From an uncultured Gilliamella sp. (lineage in GTDB: Bacteria > Pseudomonadota > Gammaproteobacteria > Enterobacterales > Orbaceae): DNA of 64,000 nucleotides. Where the stretch lies: the NCBI GenBank assembly GCA_945271295.1, contig CALYPG010000006.1, positions 1 to 64,000 of the forward strand, read 5' to 3'. This document shows positions 53,167 to 64,000 of the stretch, in pieces (position 1 is the stretch's first letter; every line of letters begins with the position of its first letter). The translations under genes and the position numbers were made by a program. The notes under the pieces were generated by a model. The model was not told the DNA's origin. It made no database searches and was given only the letters and a program-made list of their open reading frames with translations.

Positions 53167-56007
53167 ATGGCGAACGTATTAAATGACCTCATTAATCAAT
53201 TTAGTGAAGGTTTAATCAATGGATTAATCGGTAAGGTTAGCCATAATCGTTACACTTTAACCATTGATAAACTTAGTTCACCAATTTCGATTTTACGGCT
53301 TGAAACTCAAGAACAGTTAAATCAACCATGGCGTTACACCATTGCTTTTACCAGTTCAGATAAAATGTTATCAATTAATTCTGTGCTCAACCAACAAGCC
53401 ACGTTTTCATTTAATCCTGTTACTGACACATTATTAAACACAGCGATACATTCACTCAGCGATTTACCATCCATCAATAATCCACGCCGGATGTATGGTG
53501 TGATAACCGAGTTTAGTCAATTATCGGTTAATAAAGACGAAGCACTTTATCAGGTAGTATTATCATCGAGACTAGCAAGACTTGCCTTAAACCGTAATAA
53601 TGCAATATTTCAAAATATGAGTGTAGTAAGCGTAGTTGAAGAAGTACTACGTAGTCACGGATTTACTGGTATTGATTATCGCTTAGCATTAAAAGATAGC
53701 TATCCGATACGCGAATTTATTACCCAATGGAACGAAAGTGATTTGGAATTTATTCAGCGTTTACTGGCAGATGTGGGGATATGGTTTCGTTTTGAAAGTC
53801 ATACCCAACATGATTGCGACGTAATGGTATTAAGTGATTATGAGCAAGGTTATCATCAAGCGACTGACATTGATTACAAACTTGAAACAGGAACGCTCGA
53901 CAGTGAAGTAGAAAGTGTTTGGGAGATGGCATTACATAGTCAAATAGTGGAATCATCGGTAAAAGTGCAAGATTATAACTATCGTAAAGCCGATGAAAAT
54001 CTATTGTGCGAAATGAATACTCAACCGACAGATATCACAACATATGGTACAAACTACCGTTACGCGGAGCATTATAAAAGTACCGGTGGTGACAAACAAA
54101 ACAGTAATACCCAAGATAACAATCATGACAATAGTGGTAATATTGAAAGCGGTCAATGGTATGCCCGAATTCGTCATGAACATGCAATTAGCCGACAAAT
54201 TCTTATAACCGGAAAAAGCAATAGCTACACCTTAGCGCCCGGTCAGCATATACGCATTACCGGCAATCCATTACCTGCACTGCAAGAAGGCGTAATAATA
54301 TTAACTATAAATGGGCAAGGAAATCGTACTGATGCCTTTGAACTGAGCTTTACCGCCATTGCTTACCAGGTTTTAAAACCCTATCGCCCGGCTCCAATAG
54401 CGTGGCCCAAAGCCGTAGGTACATTACCTGCTCGAGTGACCAGTCCGGATAACGATATTTACGGTTATATCGATACCCAAGGGCGTTACCGGGTTAAGTT
54501 TAATGTTGACTTAAAAAACTGGAAAAATGGTCAAGAAAGTCTGTGGGTCAGACTGGCTAAGCCGTATGCCGGTCATACCTATGGATTTCACTTCCCACTT
54601 ATTAATAACACTGAAGTAGCCATTGGCTTTATGGATAATAATCCAGATCGCCCCTATATTGCGCATGCCATGCATGACAGTGCTCACCCTGATCATGTAA
54701 CAACGGTAAATAAACATCGCAATGTCATCCGTACGCCAACTAACAATAAGTTACGCATGGACGATAAACGAGGTAAAGAGCATATCAAGCTTGCTACCGA
54801 ATACGGCAAAACGCAACTAAATATTGGTCATTTAGTGGATCAAAACAAAGAACAACGTGGTGAAGGGTTTGAGCTACGAACTGATGAATGGGGAGCTATC
54901 GCTGCTGAAAAAGGTTTATACCTAACCAGCCAGACCGAGCCAAAAGCACAAGGCAAACAACTTGATATGCAAGGTGCGATAACGCAACTTGAAAATGCGC
55001 TATCAATCGCTAAAGCACTGCAAAATGCAGCAAACAGCTCACAAGCACACACCGCTGAGACGGATAGCCAGGCGCAACTTAAAACATCATTAACTCAACT
55101 AGCTGAAAGCGGAATATTAGCTTATGCACAAGAAGGTATTGCCTTAACCAGTCCGGAAGATATTCAGCTATCAACCAGCAATAACGTAACTGTCACTGCT
55201 GAAAACCAAACGGATATCAGTGCTTTAAAAAATATCACCGCATCATCGGCCGAAGCAATAGGTCTGTTTGCCCATAAATCAGGTATGAAAGTATTTACCA
55301 ATCAAGGCGATATAGAAGTGCAAGCGCAAAATGCCAATTTAGCCATGGCGGCCAAACAAGACATTAAAATAGATAGTGTAGAGGGTAAAGTAAGTATAAC
55401 CGCCAGTGAAAACATCACGTTAATTTGTGGTGGTTCATATATTAAAATCAGCAGTGAAGGCATTGAGCTAGGTACCTCCGGAAATATCTATCTAAAATGC
55501 AATGCGTTACAAAAAATGGGGCCAGCATCTTTATTTGCACCAACCATCGAGCTTCCTTTAGGGGCAATTACTCTTTCACAACTTCCTTGTCAACTGAATC
55601 TTAAAATCAGCGATATTCCAGGTAGAAATGGTATTAATTATGCTAATTCAGATTGGCGAATTGTATTAGCCAATTGTTCAGATGATGCGCTAATGACCGA
55701 TGAGGTTATCTCAGAAGGAAAAACAACACCACAAGGTGAATTAGCGATATCACCAGATGACTCGAAAGAATTGATAAAACAATATAATAAACATCCAGGA
55801 TTCCTATGGATAGTGACTAATAATATTGCTTATCAGCTACAATTTACGACTTTAGGAAATGAAGATAGTTTGAAAAAAAATATTAAAGCGGCTCATGCGA
55901 TGGGATATAACACCAAAATGTTAAAAGAGCAAAAAAGATTCTTAAATGCAGTTGAAAGTAACTCACAAATCAACAAGAATCAATTAATTAACTCAATAAA
56001 AAAGTAA
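53167..56007 (+). CDS. vgrG: VgrG (T6SS spike) with C-terminal extension
   Basis: A 946-residue TssI protein. Residues ~25-400 are the gp27-like base, with an unusual Asn/Gln-rich insert (~residue 310-325). A gp5-like OB region follows (RYRVKFNVDLKNWK, LWVRLAKPYAG), then the DUF2345 beta-helix (~540-780) ending QKMGP. The last ~160 residues look like a transthyretin-type or effector-docking domain (LKISDIPGRNG ... NSDWRIVLANC) plus a helical tail. The phospholipase gene begins 10 bases later, so this spike should carry it. AAGGA precedes the ATG. Confidence 0.93.
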   Translation: MANVLNDLINQFSEGLINGLIGKVSHNRYTLTIDKLSSPISILRLETQEQLNQPWRYTIAFTSSDKMLSINSVLNQQATFSFNPVTDTLLNTAIHSLSDLPSINNPRRMYGVITEFSQLSVNKDEALYQVVLSSRLARLALNRNNAIFQNMSVVSVVEEVLRSHGFTGIDYRLALKDSYPIREFITQWNESDLEFIQRLLADVGIWFRFESHTQHDCDVMVLSDYEQGYHQATDIDYKLETGTLDSEVESVWEMALHSQIVESSVKVQDYNYRKADENLLCEMNTQPTDITTYGTNYRYAEHYKSTGGDKQNSNTQDNNHDNSGNIESGQWYARIRHEHAISRQILITGKSNSYTLAPGQHIRITGNPLPALQEGVIILTINGQGNRTDAFELSFTAIAYQVLKPYRPAPIAWPKAVGTLPARVTSPDNDIYGYIDTQGRYRVKFNVDLKNWKNGQESLWVRLAKPYAGHTYGFHFPLINNTEVAIGFMDNNPDRPYIAHAMHDSAHPDHVTTVNKHRNVIRTPTNNKLRMDDKRGKEHIKLATEYGKTQLNIGHLVDQNKEQRGEGFELRTDEWGAIAAEKGLYLTSQTEPKAQGKQLDMQGAITQLENALSIAKALQNAANSSQAHTAETDSQAQLKTSLTQLAESGILAYAQEGIALTSPEDIQLSTSNNVTVTAENQTDISALKNITASSAEAIGLFAHKSGMKVFTNQGDIEVQAQNANLAMAAKQDIKIDSVEGKVSITASENITLICGGSYIKISSEGIELGTSGNIYLKCNALQKMGPASLFAPTIELPLGAITLSQLPCQLNLKISDIPGRNGINYANSDWRIVLANCSDDALMTDEVISEGKTTPQGELAISPDDSKELIKQYNKHPGFLWIVTNNIAYQLQFTTLGNEDSLKKNIKAAHAMGYNTKMLKEQKRFLNAVESNSQINKNQLINSIKK

Positions 56008-56017
56008 TGGTATACCA

Positions 56018-58552
56018 ATGACGGAACATAATAAAACATACGTTTTACTTGATAAAAATAATAAAGAAGACTACACCTCGACTGTCACCGATGATATTTG
56101 GCTATATGATATAAATGAACAAAATATTAGGAATAATTTTGCCGAACCAACACATAAAAATAGTGTTAAAGGATATGTACAATCCTATGAATACTTTCAG
56201 GATTTGATTACTGAAATTAGAAGTGCCGAAAAAGAAATCTACATAACTGGATGGCAAGTCAATTGGGATGCAAAGCTAACACCTGATTTACGCTTAATAG
56301 ATGTACTACTTGAAGTGGTACAAAAGAATAAAAATTTACAAATTTTTATTTTGCCCTGGAGACATCAATACCCAATGAATACAGGCGATCATGAAACCAT
56401 GATTGTATTAAGAAATTATATTAATGAATATATAGGACGCGAAGCAATAGCGGTAAGATCTCATCAATCTTTAAATGATGAATCTTCTCCTGTAACCACA
56501 AGGTTTTACTCTCATCATCAAAAAAGTATTATTATCGATAAGAAAATAGCGTTTGTTGGAGGGATTGATTTAGCCTATGGTCGCTATAGTCATGGTTATG
56601 ATTTGGATCCTAAAGCTGATAATCGGCAAGTACTGAATCGATATAATCCATGTGTAGTATTAATGGGAGATGCGAAAAAAAAATTATCCCTCACTTTTGA
56701 CCCGACGGATCGATCGTTTTCATCACTAAAATTGTACAAACATTTACAGGATCAGGTATTTATCAAAAAATTAGCTCAACCAACTAAAGTGACATTAGCC
56801 GATAATCAACCTATCATGCCATGGCAAGATATTCATGTCAAAATTGAAGGTAAAGCAGTATTTGATTTAGCCATCAATTTTATTTTGCGTTGGAATCAAG
56901 CTGAGAACAAAAATGAACATTCTAAAAATGTAACTTATAACAACCGTTCACAAAATTGGCCTCCAACAAATCAAGATGTAAATTTCCCTCCTGAAAATGT
57001 ATCTGATGAATGTCTTCACCGTAAGATTCCCTTACCGACTCAAGAAAATTATGATGACATAAGCGATACAGGTAATATCAGCGTCCAAATCTTAAGAAGT
57101 GCATCAAAATCTATGCGAGTTAATGAGGCACAGGTAGTACTACATGATGCTGTCAATGATATACTTTCAGGTAAAGAGGGAGTAAAGAACCGCCCTCCAA
57201 ATGTTGAAAATAACGTAAAATTTACAAACCAACCTCAAAGTGATATTTATCAAGTAATGCTTAAATTAATCAAAAAAGCCAAACGTTATATTTATATAGA
57301 GAATCAATTTTTTATCTCTGATTATGGTCAACCTTTTGCGGGTTTATCTAAGCTATCCAAACCAGCTGAGACTGAAAATGGATTAACCCCCTTTTTAACA
57401 AGATTGCTATCTTTCAGTGGAGATGAGTTACCGGAAAATCAAATTGTACAAGCATTGAGTGATAAGATAGCTAATGTAATCTTTGCTTATCAACCGCAAC
57501 CTTTTCATATTTATATTACCATACCTGTACATCCGGAAGGTATGTTAAGTGAAGGTGCAATTATCACTCAGACTCATCACACCAGGCAAACTATTTCTTT
57601 TGGGACAGATAGTTTGCTCAACCGTATTCGTAAACATTTATGGGTTTATCAACAACTTAACAATGATAAAGTACCACGTAAACAATGGAATAAACTGCGC
57701 CCAACCTATTATGATAAGATGGGTGATGAATACAAAACCGTCCCGTTAGAAGAGTGTGCTAAATATGTTACTTTGCTTAATTTACGTAGTTGGACGCAGT
57801 TAGGCGATCGTAGCGTAACCGAACAAATTTATGTACATAGTAAATTAACCATTGTTGACGATCTATATGTATTGGTGGGCAGTGCCAATATTAATGATCG
57901 TAGTTTGTTGGGTGATCGGGATTCTGAATTGGCAGCATTAATTGTCGATAATGATGCCCAAACAATACAATGCCCGGAACGTGGTATTGAGATACCGGTT
58001 AGAAAGTTTGCTTATCAATTACGTAAAAAAATCTGCCAAGGTTTGTATGGTGAGGGGTTAGAACAAGCAATTAAAGTACCTGAACTAGCCAGTAGCGTTA
58101 AAGCCATTCAATCTAGAGCTAAAGCTAATACTGATATTTTTGAATCGGTTTTTCCATTTATACCGAGGAATTATTTTAAAGAAAAAGTTGGCATGGATGT
58201 TACGGTTGAATTTGCTTCAATTTGGCCGGCTTTAGATTATAAAAAATTAGAAAAACGTAATAGTGAAAAATGGCAAGAGATTAAAGCTAGAACCGAAAAA
58301 AACAAGGGACAATATCCAAAATACGAATCGGTCCCTATTGATGACATAGAAGAGTTAGCTAAAGATAACATGGCATATTATTATTTTAAACACGAATTAT
58401 TAATGCCTTTTAATACTGTTTTTTGGCAAAATTATACTATTAATCAACCTTCCGAATTACAAAAAGTCAAAGGGTATATTACATTGGTACCTATCCATTG
58501 GACCGAAGGTGAAAATAATGCCATTCCTTATCATATAAGGTTAGTGACTTAA
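56018..58552 (+). CDS. T6SS phospholipase D effector (Tle5 type)
   Basis: An 844-residue phospholipase D superfamily protein with two HKD motifs: H167-Q-K169...D174 in SHHQKSIIIDKK and H607-S-K609...D614 in VHSKLTIVDDLY, the second followed by GSANINDRS. It has no signal peptide, as expected for a toxin delivered by T6SS into the periplasm of a neighbour, where it would cut membrane phospholipid head groups. Position between its VgrG and a set of periplasmic immunity genes supports the Tle5 role. Length is usual for PLD effectors of this family. Confidence 0.88.
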   Translation: MTEHNKTYVLLDKNNKEDYTSTVTDDIWLYDINEQNIRNNFAEPTHKNSVKGYVQSYEYFQDLITEIRSAEKEIYITGWQVNWDAKLTPDLRLIDVLLEVVQKNKNLQIFILPWRHQYPMNTGDHETMIVLRNYINEYIGREAIAVRSHQSLNDESSPVTTRFYSHHQKSIIIDKKIAFVGGIDLAYGRYSHGYDLDPKADNRQVLNRYNPCVVLMGDAKKKLSLTFDPTDRSFSSLKLYKHLQDQVFIKKLAQPTKVTLADNQPIMPWQDIHVKIEGKAVFDLAINFILRWNQAENKNEHSKNVTYNNRSQNWPPTNQDVNFPPENVSDECLHRKIPLPTQENYDDISDTGNISVQILRSASKSMRVNEAQVVLHDAVNDILSGKEGVKNRPPNVENNVKFTNQPQSDIYQVMLKLIKKAKRYIYIENQFFISDYGQPFAGLSKLSKPAETENGLTPFLTRLLSFSGDELPENQIVQALSDKIANVIFAYQPQPFHIYITIPVHPEGMLSEGAIITQTHHTRQTISFGTDSLLNRIRKHLWVYQQLNNDKVPRKQWNKLRPTYYDKMGDEYKTVPLEECAKYVTLLNLRSWTQLGDRSVTEQIYVHSKLTIVDDLYVLVGSANINDRSLLGDRDSELAALIVDNDAQTIQCPERGIEIPVRKFAYQLRKKICQGLYGEGLEQAIKVPELASSVKAIQSRAKANTDIFESVFPFIPRNYFKEKVGMDVTVEFASIWPALDYKKLEKRNSEKWQEIKARTEKNKGQYPKYESVPIDDIEELAKDNMAYYYFKHELLMPFNTVFWQNYTINQPSELQKVKGYITLVPIHWTEGENNAIPYHIRLVT

Positions 58553-58563
58553 GGAAAAATATT

Positions 58564-59622
58564 ATGAAAAGAGTGATATTATTAACCGCTTTGCTCGGTA
58601 GTTGTTTTGCCTCTCAAGCGGTTGAATTGAACTATAAAACCGAGTGTATAGGCTCTTATACTGTAAATTTACCGGATAACCTTGAAATTGCACTTTACCC
58701 GACAGCTCAATATCTACAGCCAAAATCTAAATATTCTGTCTATTTTGCAGATGGTAAATGGGCTATTTTATCTGGATTTAACTATAATGATAATAAATTG
58801 TCTATTACAGCAGATTGGGATAATAATGAATTAATTAATGCTAAAAAACAACTAATTGATTCTAGTAAAAAAGTTAAAATTGATAATCCTGATGAGTCAG
58901 TCGAATTATGGGAAAAAACCAATGGCTTTGGCTTCTATGCTAAAAGCGGATCTTTTGTAAATTTTATTGAGAAGAATAAAATATATACATTTTTTACTTC
59001 TAGCCATTATCAAGGTGAAGAAAGGAATTTTGACTTTTATAAACAAAATGCTGAAGCGATTATTAATGGATTTTCTACCCGTGAACTGTTTGAAGTGCCA
59101 CAAACGGCCGGTAAGTGTATTCCCTATGGTTTTGTCGCCGGTAATGATTCAACTACACCGCTCAATCTTACCGTATCTTTTCGTTTAAATGATCATCCTG
59201 ATATTGTGATTTCGTTCTCAGAAAATACCCGTTAATTTACTAATTCGTTTAGTTTTAAGGCGAAAGATGAAATAAACCTTTTTTGGAACGATAATTATGA
59301 TATCAACAATAATAATATCAAAGACATCAAATTATTGGGTTTCCCAACAAAATATAGAGATATAGAAATGGATGGACGAAACGGAACCGCCGGATTTGTT
59401 GAGATACGTTATAAAGATAAATCGCCTTCGGATTATGGTTATTACGGTGTGGTCTCCTATTATTCAAGAAATGACAAAAGTCAGGTCAATCATCCATGGT
59501 TACTGTTAACGGTAATTGGTAAACGTGATGAAGCGAAAGGGCATACGCCACTCAGTAAAGATGAGATTTATCAACTCGCCAAAACCATTGAAGCTTCAAT
59601 AAAACGCCGACCAACCGAATAG
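58564..59622 (+). CDS. Tli4-like periplasmic immunity protein, copy 1, with in-frame TAA at 59233
   Basis: Starts at ATG 58564, 11 bases after the effector stop. A signal peptide (LLTALLGSCFASQA) is followed by an N-terminal domain of ~200 residues that ends at TAA 59233-59235 after ENTR. The same frame continues for another 128 codons to TAG 59620, encoding the C-terminal domain that is joined in copy 4. The C-terminal block (KYRDIEMDGRNG, then ASIKRRP) resembles the Tli4 C-terminal domain. The first half alone is 223 residues. Whether the stop is read through, the halves are made separately, or the gene is broken is the open question. Confidence 0.6.
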
Positions 59623-59688
59623 TGCTTCAAACATCCAAAAATAACAGACAAAGCGATAGTTTAGGTAAAAAGGGAAAAGGGTAACAGT

Positions 59689-60750
59689 ATGATAAGGAGA
59701 GTGATATTATTAACCACTTTGCTCGGTAGTTGTTTTGCGGCTCAAGCGGTTGAATTGAACTATAAAACCGAGTGTATAGGTTCTTATACTGTAAATTTAC
59801 CAGATAATCTTGAAGTTGCGCTTTACCCTACAGCTCAATATCTACAACCAAAATCTGAATATCCTGTCTATTTTGCTGATGGTAAATGGGCTATTTTATC
59901 TGCTTTTAATTATAATCGAAATGATTTAAGCATTACAGCAAATTGGGATAATAACGAATTAATTGATGCAAAAAAACAACTAATTGATTCTAGTAAAAAA
60001 GTTAAAATTGATAATCCTGATGAGTCAGTAGAATTGTGGGAAAAACCCAATAGCTTTGGCTTCTTTGCAAAAAGCGGATCTTTTGTAACTTTTGTTGAAG
60101 GGAAAAAAATATACTCATTTTTTTCATCTAAACGTTACCAAGGTGAAGAAAGGGATTTTGACTTTTATAAACAAAATACCGAGGCGATAATTAATGGATT
60201 TTCTACCCGAGAACTCTTTGAAGTACCACAAACGGCCGGTAAGTGTATTCCATATGGTTTTGTTGCCGGTAATGATCCAACTACACCGCTCAATCTTACC
60301 GTATCTTTTCGTTTAAATGATCATCCTGATATTGTGATTTCGTTCTCAGAAAATACCCGTTAATTTACTAATTCGTTTAGTTTTAAGGCGAAAGATGAAA
60401 TAAACCTTTTTTGGAACGATAATTATGATATCAACAATAATAATATCAAAGACATCAAATTATTGGGTTTCCCAACAAAATATAGAGATATAGAAATGGA
60501 TGGACGAAACGGAACTGCCGGATTTGTCGAGATACGATATAAAGATAAATCGCCTTCGGATTATGGTTATTATGGCGTGGTCTCCTATTATTCAAGAAAT
60601 GATAAAAGTCAGGTCAATCATCCATGGTTACTGTTAACGGTAATTGGTAAACGCGACGAAGCGAAAGGGCATACGCCACTCAGTAAAGATGAAATTTATC
60701 AACTTGCCAAAACCATTGAAGCCTCAATAAAACGCCGACCAACAGAATAG
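59689..60750 (+). CDS. Tli4-like immunity protein, copy 2, with in-frame TAA at 60361
   Basis: 224 codons to the stop after ENTR, then the same frame to TAG 60748-60750. Signal peptide LLTTLLGSCFAAQA. The N-terminal domain is the closest to copy 1 (shared KKVKIDNPDESVELWEK), with changes in the centre. The last 95 residues are identical to those of copies 1 and 3 although the DNA differs from copy 1 at about a dozen third-codon positions. Same reservations about translation of the second half. Confidence 0.6.
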
Positions 60751-60814
60751 AGCTTCAATCGCAAAAATAACAGGCAAAGCGTGGTTTAAGTAAAAGAGGG
60801 GGAAGTAAAACAGT

Positions 60815-61876
60815 ATGATAAGGAGAGTGATATTATTAACCGCTTTACTCGGTAGTTGTTTTGCTACTCAAGCGGTTGAATTGAACTATAAAACCGAATG
60901 TATAGGCTCTTATACTGTGGATTTACCAGATAATCTTGAAGTTGCGCTATATCCTACTAAACAGTATTTAGAACCAAAACCTGAATATCCTATCTATTTT
61001 GCCGATGGTAAATGGGCTATCTTATCTACTTTTAATTATAATCGAAATAAATTATCTATTACTGCAAATTGGGATCATAACAATTTAATCGAAGCAAAAA
61101 AACAAATGATTGAATCCAATCAGAGTGTTAAAGTTGATTATCCTGATGATTTAGTTGAATTGTGGAACAAAAAAAATGGTTTTGGTTTTTATGCAAGTGG
61201 TGGATCTCATGTAACTTTTGTTGAAGAAAATAGGGTATATTCATTCTTTTCATCTAAACATTACCAAGGAAAAGAAAGGGATTTTGACTTTTATAAACAA
61301 AATACCGAGGCGATAATTAATGGATTTTCTACCCGAGAACTCTTTGAAGTACCACAAACGGCCGGTAAGTGTATTCCATATGGTTTTGTTGCCGGTAATG
61401 ATCCAACTACACCGCTCAATCTTACCGTATCTTTTCGTTTAAATGATCATCCTGATATTGTGATTTCGTTCTCAGAAAATACCCGTTAATTTACTAATTC
61501 GTTTAGTTTTAAGGCGAAAGATGAAATAAACCTTTTTTGGAACGATAATTATGATATCAACAATAATAATATCAAAGACATCAAATTATTGGGTTTCCCA
61601 ACAAAATATAGAGATATAGAAATGGATGGACGAAACGGAACCGCCGGATTTGTTGAGATACGTTATAAAGATAAATCGCCTTCGGATTATGGTTATTACG
61701 GTGTGGTCTCCTATTATTCAAGAAATGACAAAAGTCAGGTCAATCATCCATGGTTACTGTTAACGGTAATTGGTAAACGTGACGAAGCGAAAGGGCATAC
61801 TCCACTAAGTAAAGATGAAATTTATCAACTGGCCAAAACCATTGAAGCCTCAATAAAACGCCGACCAACAGAATAG
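60815..61876 (+). CDS. Tli4-like immunity protein, copy 3, with in-frame TAA at 61487
   Basis: 224 codons to the shared stop, then the same frame to TAG 61874. Signal peptide LLTALLGSCFATQA. The centre differs from copies 1 and 2 (YPTKQYLEPKPEYP, VKVDYPDDLVELWNKKNG, YASGGSHVTF), whereas the segment from DFYKQNTEAIINGFS on is identical in amino acids to copy 2. The C-terminal 95 residues equal those of copies 1 and 2. Confidence 0.6.
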
Positions 61877-61942
61877 TGCTTCAAATATCCAAAAATAACA
61901 GACAAAGCGATAATTTAGGTTAAGGGGGAAAAGGGAAACAGT

Positions 61943-63001
61943 ATGATAAGGAGAGTTATATTATTAACTACTTTACTCGGTAGTTGTTTTGCCATTCAAG
62001 CGGTTGAATTGAACTATAAAACCGAGTGTATAGGCTCTTATACTGTAAATTTACCAGATAATCTTGAAGTTGCGCTTTATCCGACTAAACAGTATTTAGA
62101 ACCCAAATCACATTATCCAGTCTATTTTGCTGATGGTAAATGGGCTATTTTATCTGCTTTTAATTATAATCGAAATAATTTAAGCATTACAGCAAATTGG
62201 AATGCTGATGAATTAACCAATGCAAAAAAACAATTAACTAATTCCTTTTTAAGTATTAAAAATAATAATCCAGATCATTTATTTGAACCGTGGGAAAAAG
62301 AAGACAGCTTTGGTTATTTTGAAAAAGGTGCATCTCGAGTAATTTTTATTAAAGAAAATAGAATTTATTCTTTTCGAAGTTCTAATTATTATGACGGAGA
62401 TAAAAAAGGTTTTGATTTTTATAAGCAAAATGCTGAAGCAATTATTAATGGATTTTCTACCCGAGAACTTTTTGAAGTGCCACAAACAGCCGGTAAGTGT
62501 ATTCCATATGGCTTTGTCGCCGGTAATGATCCAACTATTCCGCTCAATCTTACCGTATCTTTCCGTTTAAATGATCATCCTGATATTGTGATTTCGTTTA
62601 CTGAAAATACAAATATTTTTACCAATTCATTAAGGGTTGGCGCCGAAGACGAGATACGTCATTTTTGGGGTTACAATTATGATAATGGTAATAGAAATAT
62701 CAAGGATATTAAATTACAAGAAAAACCTAAATATAAAGATATAGAAATGGATGGACGAAAAGGAGTGTCAGGATTTGTTGAGATACGTTATAAAGATGCA
62801 TCGCCTTCGGATTATGGTTATTATGGTGTAGTTGACTATGATTCAATAAACAAGAAAAGCCCAAATAAGCATCCATGGTTACAGTTAATGGTAATTGGTA
62901 AACGCAACGAAGCGAAAGGGCATACGCCACTAAGTAAAGATGAAATTTATCGACTGGCTAAAACCATTGAAGCCTCAATAAAACGCCGACCAACAGAATA
63001 G
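61943..63001 (+). CDS. Tli4-like periplasmic immunity protein, copy 4, intact two-domain form
   Basis: A 352-residue uninterrupted protein: signal peptide (LLTTLLGSCFAIQA; possible lipobox LGSC), N-terminal domain to about 222, C-terminal domain to 352 ending ASIKRRPTE. At the position of the stop in other copies it has ATT in ENTNIFTNS. Its C-terminal domain is diverged (KYKDIEMDGRKGVSGF, DASPSDYGYYGVVDYDS). This copy shows the ancestral fused design and should protect against the adjacent phospholipase or a relative, in the periplasm. Confidence 0.72.
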   Translation: MIRRVILLTTLLGSCFAIQAVELNYKTECIGSYTVNLPDNLEVALYPTKQYLEPKSHYPVYFADGKWAILSAFNYNRNNLSITANWNADELTNAKKQLTNSFLSIKNNNPDHLFEPWEKEDSFGYFEKGASRVIFIKENRIYSFRSSNYYDGDKKGFDFYKQNAEAIINGFSTRELFEVPQTAGKCIPYGFVAGNDPTIPLNLTVSFRLNDHPDIVISFTENTNIFTNSLRVGAEDEIRHFWGYNYDNGNRNIKDIKLQEKPKYKDIEMDGRKGVSGFVEIRYKDASPSDYGYYGVVDYDSINKKSPNKHPWLQLMVIGKRNEAKGHTPLSKDEIYRLAKTIEASIKRRPTE

Positions 63002-63065
63002 AGCTTCAATCGCAAAAATAACAGGCAAAGCGTGGTTTAAGTAAAAGAGGGGGAAGGAAAACAGT

Positions 63066-64000
63066 ATGATAAGGAGAGTGATATTATTAACCGCTTTGCT
63101 CGGTAGTTGTTTTGCTACTCAAGCGGTTGAGTTGAACTATAAAACCGAGTGTATAGGCTCTTATACTGTGGATTTACCAGATAATCTTGAAGTTGCGCTT
63201 TATCCGACTAAACAGTATTTAGAACCCAAATCACGCTATCCAATCTATTTTGCTGATGGTAAATGGGCGATTCTATCAACATTTAATTATAATGATAATA
63301 AATTGTCTATTACTGCAAATTTGGATCATAGCAATTTAATCGAAGCAAAAAAACAATTATCGAATTCTATTCAAAATATTAAAATTAAAAATCCGAATCA
63401 TTTAGTTGAACCATGGGAAAAAACGGATAGTTTTGGTTTTTACTCAACAGAAGCTTCACGAGTGATCTTTATAAAAAAAAATAGAATTTATTCTTTTCGT
63501 ACTTCTGAACGTTATCAAGGTGAAAAAAGAAATTATGACTTTTATAAACAAAATACCGAGGCGATAATTAATGGATTTTCTACCCGTGAGCTGTTTGAAG
63601 TGCCACAAACGGCCGGTAAGTGTATTCCATATGGCTTTGTCGCCGGTAATGATCCAACTACACCGCTCAATCTTACCGTATCTTTTCGTTTAAATGATCA
63701 TCCTGATATTGTGATTTCGTTCTCAGAAAATACCCGTTAATTTACTAATTCGTTTAGTTTTAAGGCGAAAGATGAAATAAACCTTTTTTGGAACGATAAT
63801 TATGATATCAACAATAATAATATCAAAGACATCAAATTATTGGGTTTCCCAACAAAATATAGAGATATAGAAATGGATGGACGAAACGGAACCGCCGGAT
63901 TTGTTGAGATACGTTATAAAGATAAATCGCCTTCGGATTATGGTTATTACGGTGTGGTCTCCTATTATTCAAGAAATGACAAAAGTCAGGTCAATCATCC
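63066..64000 (+). CDS. Tli4-like immunity protein, copy 5, with in-frame TAA at 63738, truncated by window
   Basis: 224 codons to the shared stop after ENTR; the frame then continues to the window edge at NHP. The signal peptide is identical to that of copy 3 (LLTALLGSCFATQA). The centre resembles copy 4 (NPNHLVEPWEKTDSFGFY, RIYSFRTSERYQGEKRNYDFYK), so copy 5 is a mosaic: copy-4-like middle joined to a stop-bearing 3' half like copies 1-3. More copies may follow beyond the window. Confidence 0.6.

Follow-up and report, generated by a model that had tools for sequence, protein, structure and literature searches.

One in-frame stop codon shared by four of five tandem type VI immunity genes of Gilliamella, very probably spread by gene conversion

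Introduction

In Pseudomonas aeruginosa, the immunity protein Tli5a (PA3488) and the tandem Tli5b1-3 are encoded beside the phospholipase D effectors PldA and PldB, a system that is among the closest known to the locus described here. Within the PldA-PA3488 complex, replacement of PA3488 Asp273 by alanine raised the KD from 3.07e-11 to 1.73e-8 M, according to excerpts of the corresponding study (PMC9550806). Two other systems bear on the fate of immunity genes rather than on their targets: excerpts of one report describe recombination among esaG and tipC, tandem immunity paralogues of type VII secretion, for which RDP4 was used (PMC9484751), and excerpts of another describe nonsense mutations acquired by immunity genes in Snodgrassella alvi, a bacterium of the bee gut (PMC5727410). 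The locus that is the subject of this report combines a phospholipase D-type effector gene with a row of five immunity genes, most of which are interrupted by one and the same stop codon.

The immunity gene array and its surroundings

The window, a stretch of 64,000 nucleotides, belongs to a draft genome of 2.8 Mb in 50 contigs. Toward its 3' end lie, in this order, a VgrG gene, a gene with two PLD motif matches, and five tandem genes that carry the Tli4_C domain:

53167..56007, + strand: VgrG spike protein gene of the type VI secretion system (Pfam Phage_GPD, T6SS_Vgr and DUF2345; NCBIfam TIGR01646 and TIGR03361 above cut-off)
56018..58552, + strand: phospholipase D-type (Tle5-like) effector gene, open over 844 aa (PF00614 in two stretches, giving two PLDc motif matches)
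58564..59622, + strand: immunity gene copy 1; TAA at 59233-59235 closes the reading frame (223 aa), and the frame is then open to TAG at 59620-59622
59150..59387, + strand (copy 1 coordinates): tract of 238 bp, identical in DNA and common to copies 1, 2, 3 and 5, which holds the TAA
59689..60750, + strand: immunity gene copy 2; TAA at 60361-60363 closes the reading frame (224 aa); tract at 60278-60515
60815..61876, + strand: immunity gene copy 3; TAA at 61487-61489 closes the reading frame (224 aa); tract at 61404-61641
61943..63001, + strand: immunity gene copy 4; intact, 352 aa; cassette DNA only 77% identical over the tract
63066..64000, + strand: immunity gene copy 5; TAA at 63738-63740 closes the reading frame (224 aa); tract at 63655-63892; the frame ends at contig position 64127, past the window

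Since copy 5 runs past the end of the window, its remaining part was read further along the contig (the gene spanning 63066 to contig position 64127); its normal end deviates, with a TAA, then a few repeated bases and a TAG. The spacers between the copies (59623-59688, 60751-60814, 61877-61942 and 63002-63065) are of two alternating types, spacer 1-2 being 91% alike to spacer 3-4 and spacer 2-3 being 98% alike to spacer 4-5, with 74-79% for the other spacer pairs; this alternation suggests that the array may have grown by two-gene units. On the 3' side of the array, from about 64.7 kb of the contig (G000:C6, L023), the start of a 282-aa ORF recurs almost word for word further on, and neither this ORF nor the 146-aa ORF that precedes it has a Pfam match. 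The same genome holds two further pairs of Tli4_C genes (G000:C2:53872-55465 and G000:C3:121171-122983), which have much higher Pfam scores, both genes of the latter pair scoring identically. A PADLOC search gave no matches, and neither did an NCBIfam search with copies 1 and 4.

The sequence-only reading on which this analysis followed up had called the five genes Tli4-like. The Tli4_C domain (PF18426) is indeed present: copy 4 scores 32.7 bits against a curated cut-off of 25, over profile positions 1-161 and with a match that starts at residue 177, and the truncated copy 1 scores 28.7 bits, yet over profile positions 1-45 of 161 only. The best protein match is PA3488 (Tli5a), an immunity protein to a phospholipase D effector, and by effector, sequence and fold the array is closer to Tli5a than to Tli4, the array protein sharing the fold of PA3488. 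One model, built on 16 sequences, had a mean pLDDT of only 42.2 and was set aside. The model of copy 4 includes a predicted N-terminal helix, and periplasmic export is a candidate feature. The immunity genes adjoin the genes for a phospholipase D-type type VI effector and VgrG, an arrangement found likewise in the genome G026; in G001 the array is located near a VgrG gene, with an intervening 408-aa ORF that lacks a Pfam match. The five array genes likely protect the cell against its own phospholipase effector.

The shared stop codon and the tract that carries it

As had been claimed from the sequence, copies 1, 2, 3 and 5 share an in-frame TAA (at 59233, 60361, 61487 and 63738, respectively), set in the motif GAAAATACCCGTTAATTT, while copy 4 is intact, and in all four interrupted copies the frame behind the stop remains open to the normal end. 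The protein encoded behind the stop comprises 128 residues and is identical in the four stop-bearing copies; its identity had been recognized previously, but as a segment of 95 residues in copies 1-3, a length that corresponds to the ORF whose TTG start lies 34 codons past the stop. Between copies 1 and 2 there are 12 post-stop base differences, all synonymous, in agreement with the dozen or so silent differences counted at first.

Identity at the DNA level had been placed in about 33 codons just behind the stop. It in fact extends on both sides, since the 238 bp that copies 1, 2, 3 and 5 share without any difference start 27 codons ahead of the stop and end 50 codons behind it. Across the conserved part of these four copies, 24 of 567 positions are variable; 10 of them precede the stop (nine synonymous) and 14 follow it (all synonymous), and the first variable site behind the stop is found at codon +51. 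A lead this clean among 128 third positions has a hypergeometric P of 6e-4 (post hoc), and an invariant run of this length was reached in the conserved part by one of 20,000 shuffles of all sites and by none of 20,000 at third positions, figures that are descriptive, the tract having been seen first and tested after.

Outside the tract the copies tell a different history. Among copies 1, 2, 3 and 5, dS amounts to 0.30-0.78 in codons 1-168 and to 0 within the tract, and the pairwise identical runs nest round the stop: the run that copy 1 shares with the others starts 27 codons upstream, the one between copies 2 and 3 covers 71 codons on the upstream side, and the one between copies 3 and 5 opens 32 codons ahead of the stop and continues through the end of the gene. 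Nested runs, an invariant tract and diverged 5' parts together form the pattern of local gene conversion, as opposed to that of four independent mutations or a short recoding element. Whole-gene tandem duplication as the carrier of the stop was rejected as well, given the differences between the 5' parts; for copies 3 and 5, and for this pair only, a partial duplication is possible.

It is therefore very probable that the stop arose once and was then passed on among the copies by gene conversion, which would leave truncated, probably inactive proteins in four copies and one intact gene. A single mutation to TAA would have arisen in the cassette of one copy, after which conversion, with homologous recombination as its presumed agent, would have carried the stop-bearing tract into other copies while their flanks stayed copy-specific; the stop itself appears to be young. 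Copy 4 would have escaped through a cassette that recombines poorly with those of the other copies. This cassette is diverged from close to codon ~199 onward, and such divergence may be the reason why copy 4 did not receive the stop. Several observations weigh against the conversion reading: the donor event itself is not seen, the closest relatives having been compared as proteins; homogenized tails would look alike under readthrough too; copy 4 falls outside the homogenized segment (77%); and a draft assembly could have collapsed some copies.

The last of these points can be taken further, to an assembly artefact in which the stop is present in one copy and the near-identical tracts were collapsed by a short-read assembler. 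A draft in 50 contigs, with a 238-bp tract identical four times over, lends itself to such an error. The tract is nonetheless bounded by variants, the upstream one in copy 1 at 84 nt from the stop and the downstream one in copy 2 at 155 nt; the truncated copy 3 is recorded as a protein (P0010) on three contigs, which are perhaps not independent; and two single-contig genomes show the same homogenized segment. We regard an artefact as improbable.

Intact relatives and homogenization in other genomes

The sequence-only reading had proposed a search for the same TAA in related genomes. None of 11 full-length or near full-length genes from five other genomes carries a stop, in a comparison that takes one genome per species and in which other strains of this species are represented by proteins only. 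The four other Tli4_C genes of the same genome have no internal stop either. With up to two mismatches, the stop context occurs in one of 44 family genomes, namely this one, four times, a count in which diverged cassettes would escape matching even if stop-bearing.

At the protein level, all 11 close relatives picked from 33 matches have a residue at the stop position. Four of them (P0003, P0006, P0012 and P0014) match at 128 of 128 post-stop residues, and P0004 equals copy 2 at all compared residues bar the stop and one other. P0014 is a chimera, in which the 5' part of copy 4 (196/196) is joined to the common tail (128/128), with a switch near codon 199. A search of genome contigs with P0003 found no relative, near records possibly being left out of it, and the cassette DNA had no matches in viral contigs. 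A profile search yielded 69 homologues, of which 62 have at least 340 aa, four shorter ones read across the stop point, two fail to reach it or to align there, and one ends at it, this being P0010, copy 3 itself; the homologues are representatives of 90% clusters, and as the truncated copies 1, 2 and 5 are absent from the list, other truncated forms may be hidden too. P0037 (229 aa) was rejected as an independent truncation, its C-terminal part being kept and its N-terminal part missing. C-terminal remnants are also seen beside full-length copies in G001 (L020, G001:C1:1624858-1625031) and G026 (L021, G026:C1:1585674-1585823), and a decayed copy with several stops is present in G002 (L011, G002:C14:77689-77931).

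Intact genes of other genomes are homogenized over the same segment. Identity within a genome is 93-97% in the tract against 81-99% in codons 61-168 for G026, 93-99% against 62-95% for G001, and 93-97% against 62-67% for G040; one pair each in G026 (99%) and G001 (95%) is near-identical upstream as well, so that the contrast rests on the remaining pairs. In G026, one of the three genes is located about 0.41 Mb away from the other two. Over the tract, 10 of 19 within-genome pairs exceed every between-genome pair, six of these 10 being pairs of the stop-bearing copies themselves, and over codons 61-168 none of the 19 does so; the four pairs involving copy 4 reach only 77% in the tract. In region trees, G001a groups with G034 upstream and with G001c in the tract, G001a and G034 both shifting their position between trees. 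High-identity blocks with variable blocks between them, mosaic genes and conflicting region trees are thus all found, as in a recombining array. Gene conversion, which the sequence-only reading had named beside translational explanations, is well supported by the identical tract, the variable flanks on both of its sides, the homogenization elsewhere, and the chimera of copy 4 and common tail.

Translation beyond the stop

The translational explanations start from the same open tail. In one, the TAA would be read through at a useful efficiency and full-length immunity proteins would be made from copies 1, 2, 3 and 5, in keeping with an open post-stop frame, 128 identical residues in four copies, and variable sites that are synonymous in 14 of 14 cases. 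It had been argued that in a dead tail the changes would not all be silent. This argument fails here, since the silent changes are found beyond the identical tract and for that reason are most likely older than the stop, dating from the time when the genes were whole; similarly, as close relatives are intact and the tract is identical, the apparent constraint most likely predates a young stop.

What was found at the stop itself also speaks against readthrough. The 95 nt that follow it fold like shuffled sequences (z 0.11, with 102 of 200 shuffles folding at least as well, pseudoknots being outside this test), and variation behind the stop starts only at codon +51. The proposed recoding signal just after the stop is not supported, its folding being average and the tract extending upstream too. 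Nor is the stop conserved: it is missing from the 11 genes of the five other genomes and from the four other Tli4_C genes of this one, and the single cluster representative among 69 that ends there is copy 3. ARAGORN reported no TTA, CTA or TCA anticodon among 42 tRNA matches; this list is incomplete, with 150 of 227 candidates scored and expected tRNAs such as tRNA-Glu absent, and a suppressor tRNA may have escaped it. In bacteria, UAA usually terminates translation tightly. Readthrough at a useful level is accordingly very improbable, low-level readthrough being possible, and translation presumably ends at the stop in copies 1, 2, 3 and 5.

The tail could alternatively be reached by reinitiation, with a separate C-terminal fragment that complements the truncated N-terminal part. 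In-frame start codons are available at +34 (TTG), +45 (ATG) and +72 (GTG) codons. None in any frame occurs in the 32 nt that follow the first base of the stop, however, and the out-of-frame ATG at +34 nt closes two codons on; by eye, no clear ribosome-binding site precedes the in-frame TTG or ATG. A search for the post-stop segment as a homologue of 70-222 aa returned 13 candidates, none at E <= 0.001; P0037, whose 229 aa are beyond this range, does contain the C-terminal part along with a piece upstream of it. Reinitiation, also suggested in the sequence-only reading, is the least probable of the explanations considered, to the point of being hardly credible.

The truncated products

With the spread of the stop by gene conversion as the preferred reading, the question arises of what the shortened genes encode. 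The stop had been placed at a domain boundary; it falls instead inside the Tli4_C domain, which is matched from residue 177 and of which the truncated copy 1 covers profile positions up to 45 of 161. In the model of copy 4, the equivalent of the stop is located in a predicted loop that follows strand 215-222, and a helix (234-245), five strands and a last helix are predicted beyond it. A product ending at the stop would be about 129 residues shorter and would lack most of the Tli4_C fold. The alignment to PA3488 ends at residue 260 of the latter, near the stop position, and Asp273 is found some 13 residues further on; because the alignment ends there, the Asp273 contact would be lost by homology. 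In addition, three of 12 columns that are invariant among 58 homologues sit in the lost part.

These observations also bear on whether the proteins of 223-224 aa might themselves be the functional form, the stop having been favored during its spread. Such selection would suit its presence in four of five copies, and the N-terminal part retains the region matching several of the PA3488 contacts described in excerpts of PMC9550806. It is difficult to reconcile with a stop that, by the copy 4 model, would interrupt the Tli4_C fold after strand 215-222, with the position of Asp273 past the matching point, with the invariant columns of the lost part, and with the finding that no listed representative ends there save P0010 of copy 3. 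A functional short form is therefore highly unlikely, and the truncated proteins of copies 1, 2, 3 and 5 are probably inactive.

Implications and comparison with known systems

The recombination by which tandem immunity genes are homogenized could equally distribute a null allele among them, and a cell that seems to be protected fivefold may rest on a single diverged copy. It is of note that, in a gene family under concerted evolution, purely silent differences downstream of a common stop do not count as evidence of readthrough, a trap into which genome scans for recoding could fall again. A more speculative idea, which we consider unlikely, is that the array acts as a self-silencing and self-restoring store of immunity: conversion would spread the stop cassette and divergent N-terminal specificities would go off together, one cassette too divergent to be converted would be shielded and kept as the working gene, and a later intact cassette would restore the silent ones. 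Were this so, strains should differ in which copies are live.

Programmed readthrough of stop codons resembles the array in having an in-frame stop with an open tail, and differs from it in that no conserved stop, RNA structure or restart was found here. No report of gene conversion among type VI immunity genes in tandem was found in the open-licence literature, though such reports may exist. According to the excerpts of PMC9484751, the esaG and tipC arrays share with this locus tandem paralogues in which high-identity and variable blocks alternate and whose copies recombine with one another, and esaG4 likewise has a premature stop; they belong to another secretion system and protein family, and the stop there is described in one copy of RN6390, compared to four of five copies here. 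Snodgrassella alvi, in the excerpts of PMC5727410, offers a second parallel, being a bee gut symbiont whose immunity genes bear nonsense mutations; those genes are Rhs immunity genes described as orphaned from their toxin, whereas in the present array the adjoining effector gene is open over 844 aa. The process itself is known, and what differs here is one stop across four of five copies beside an effector gene that is still open.
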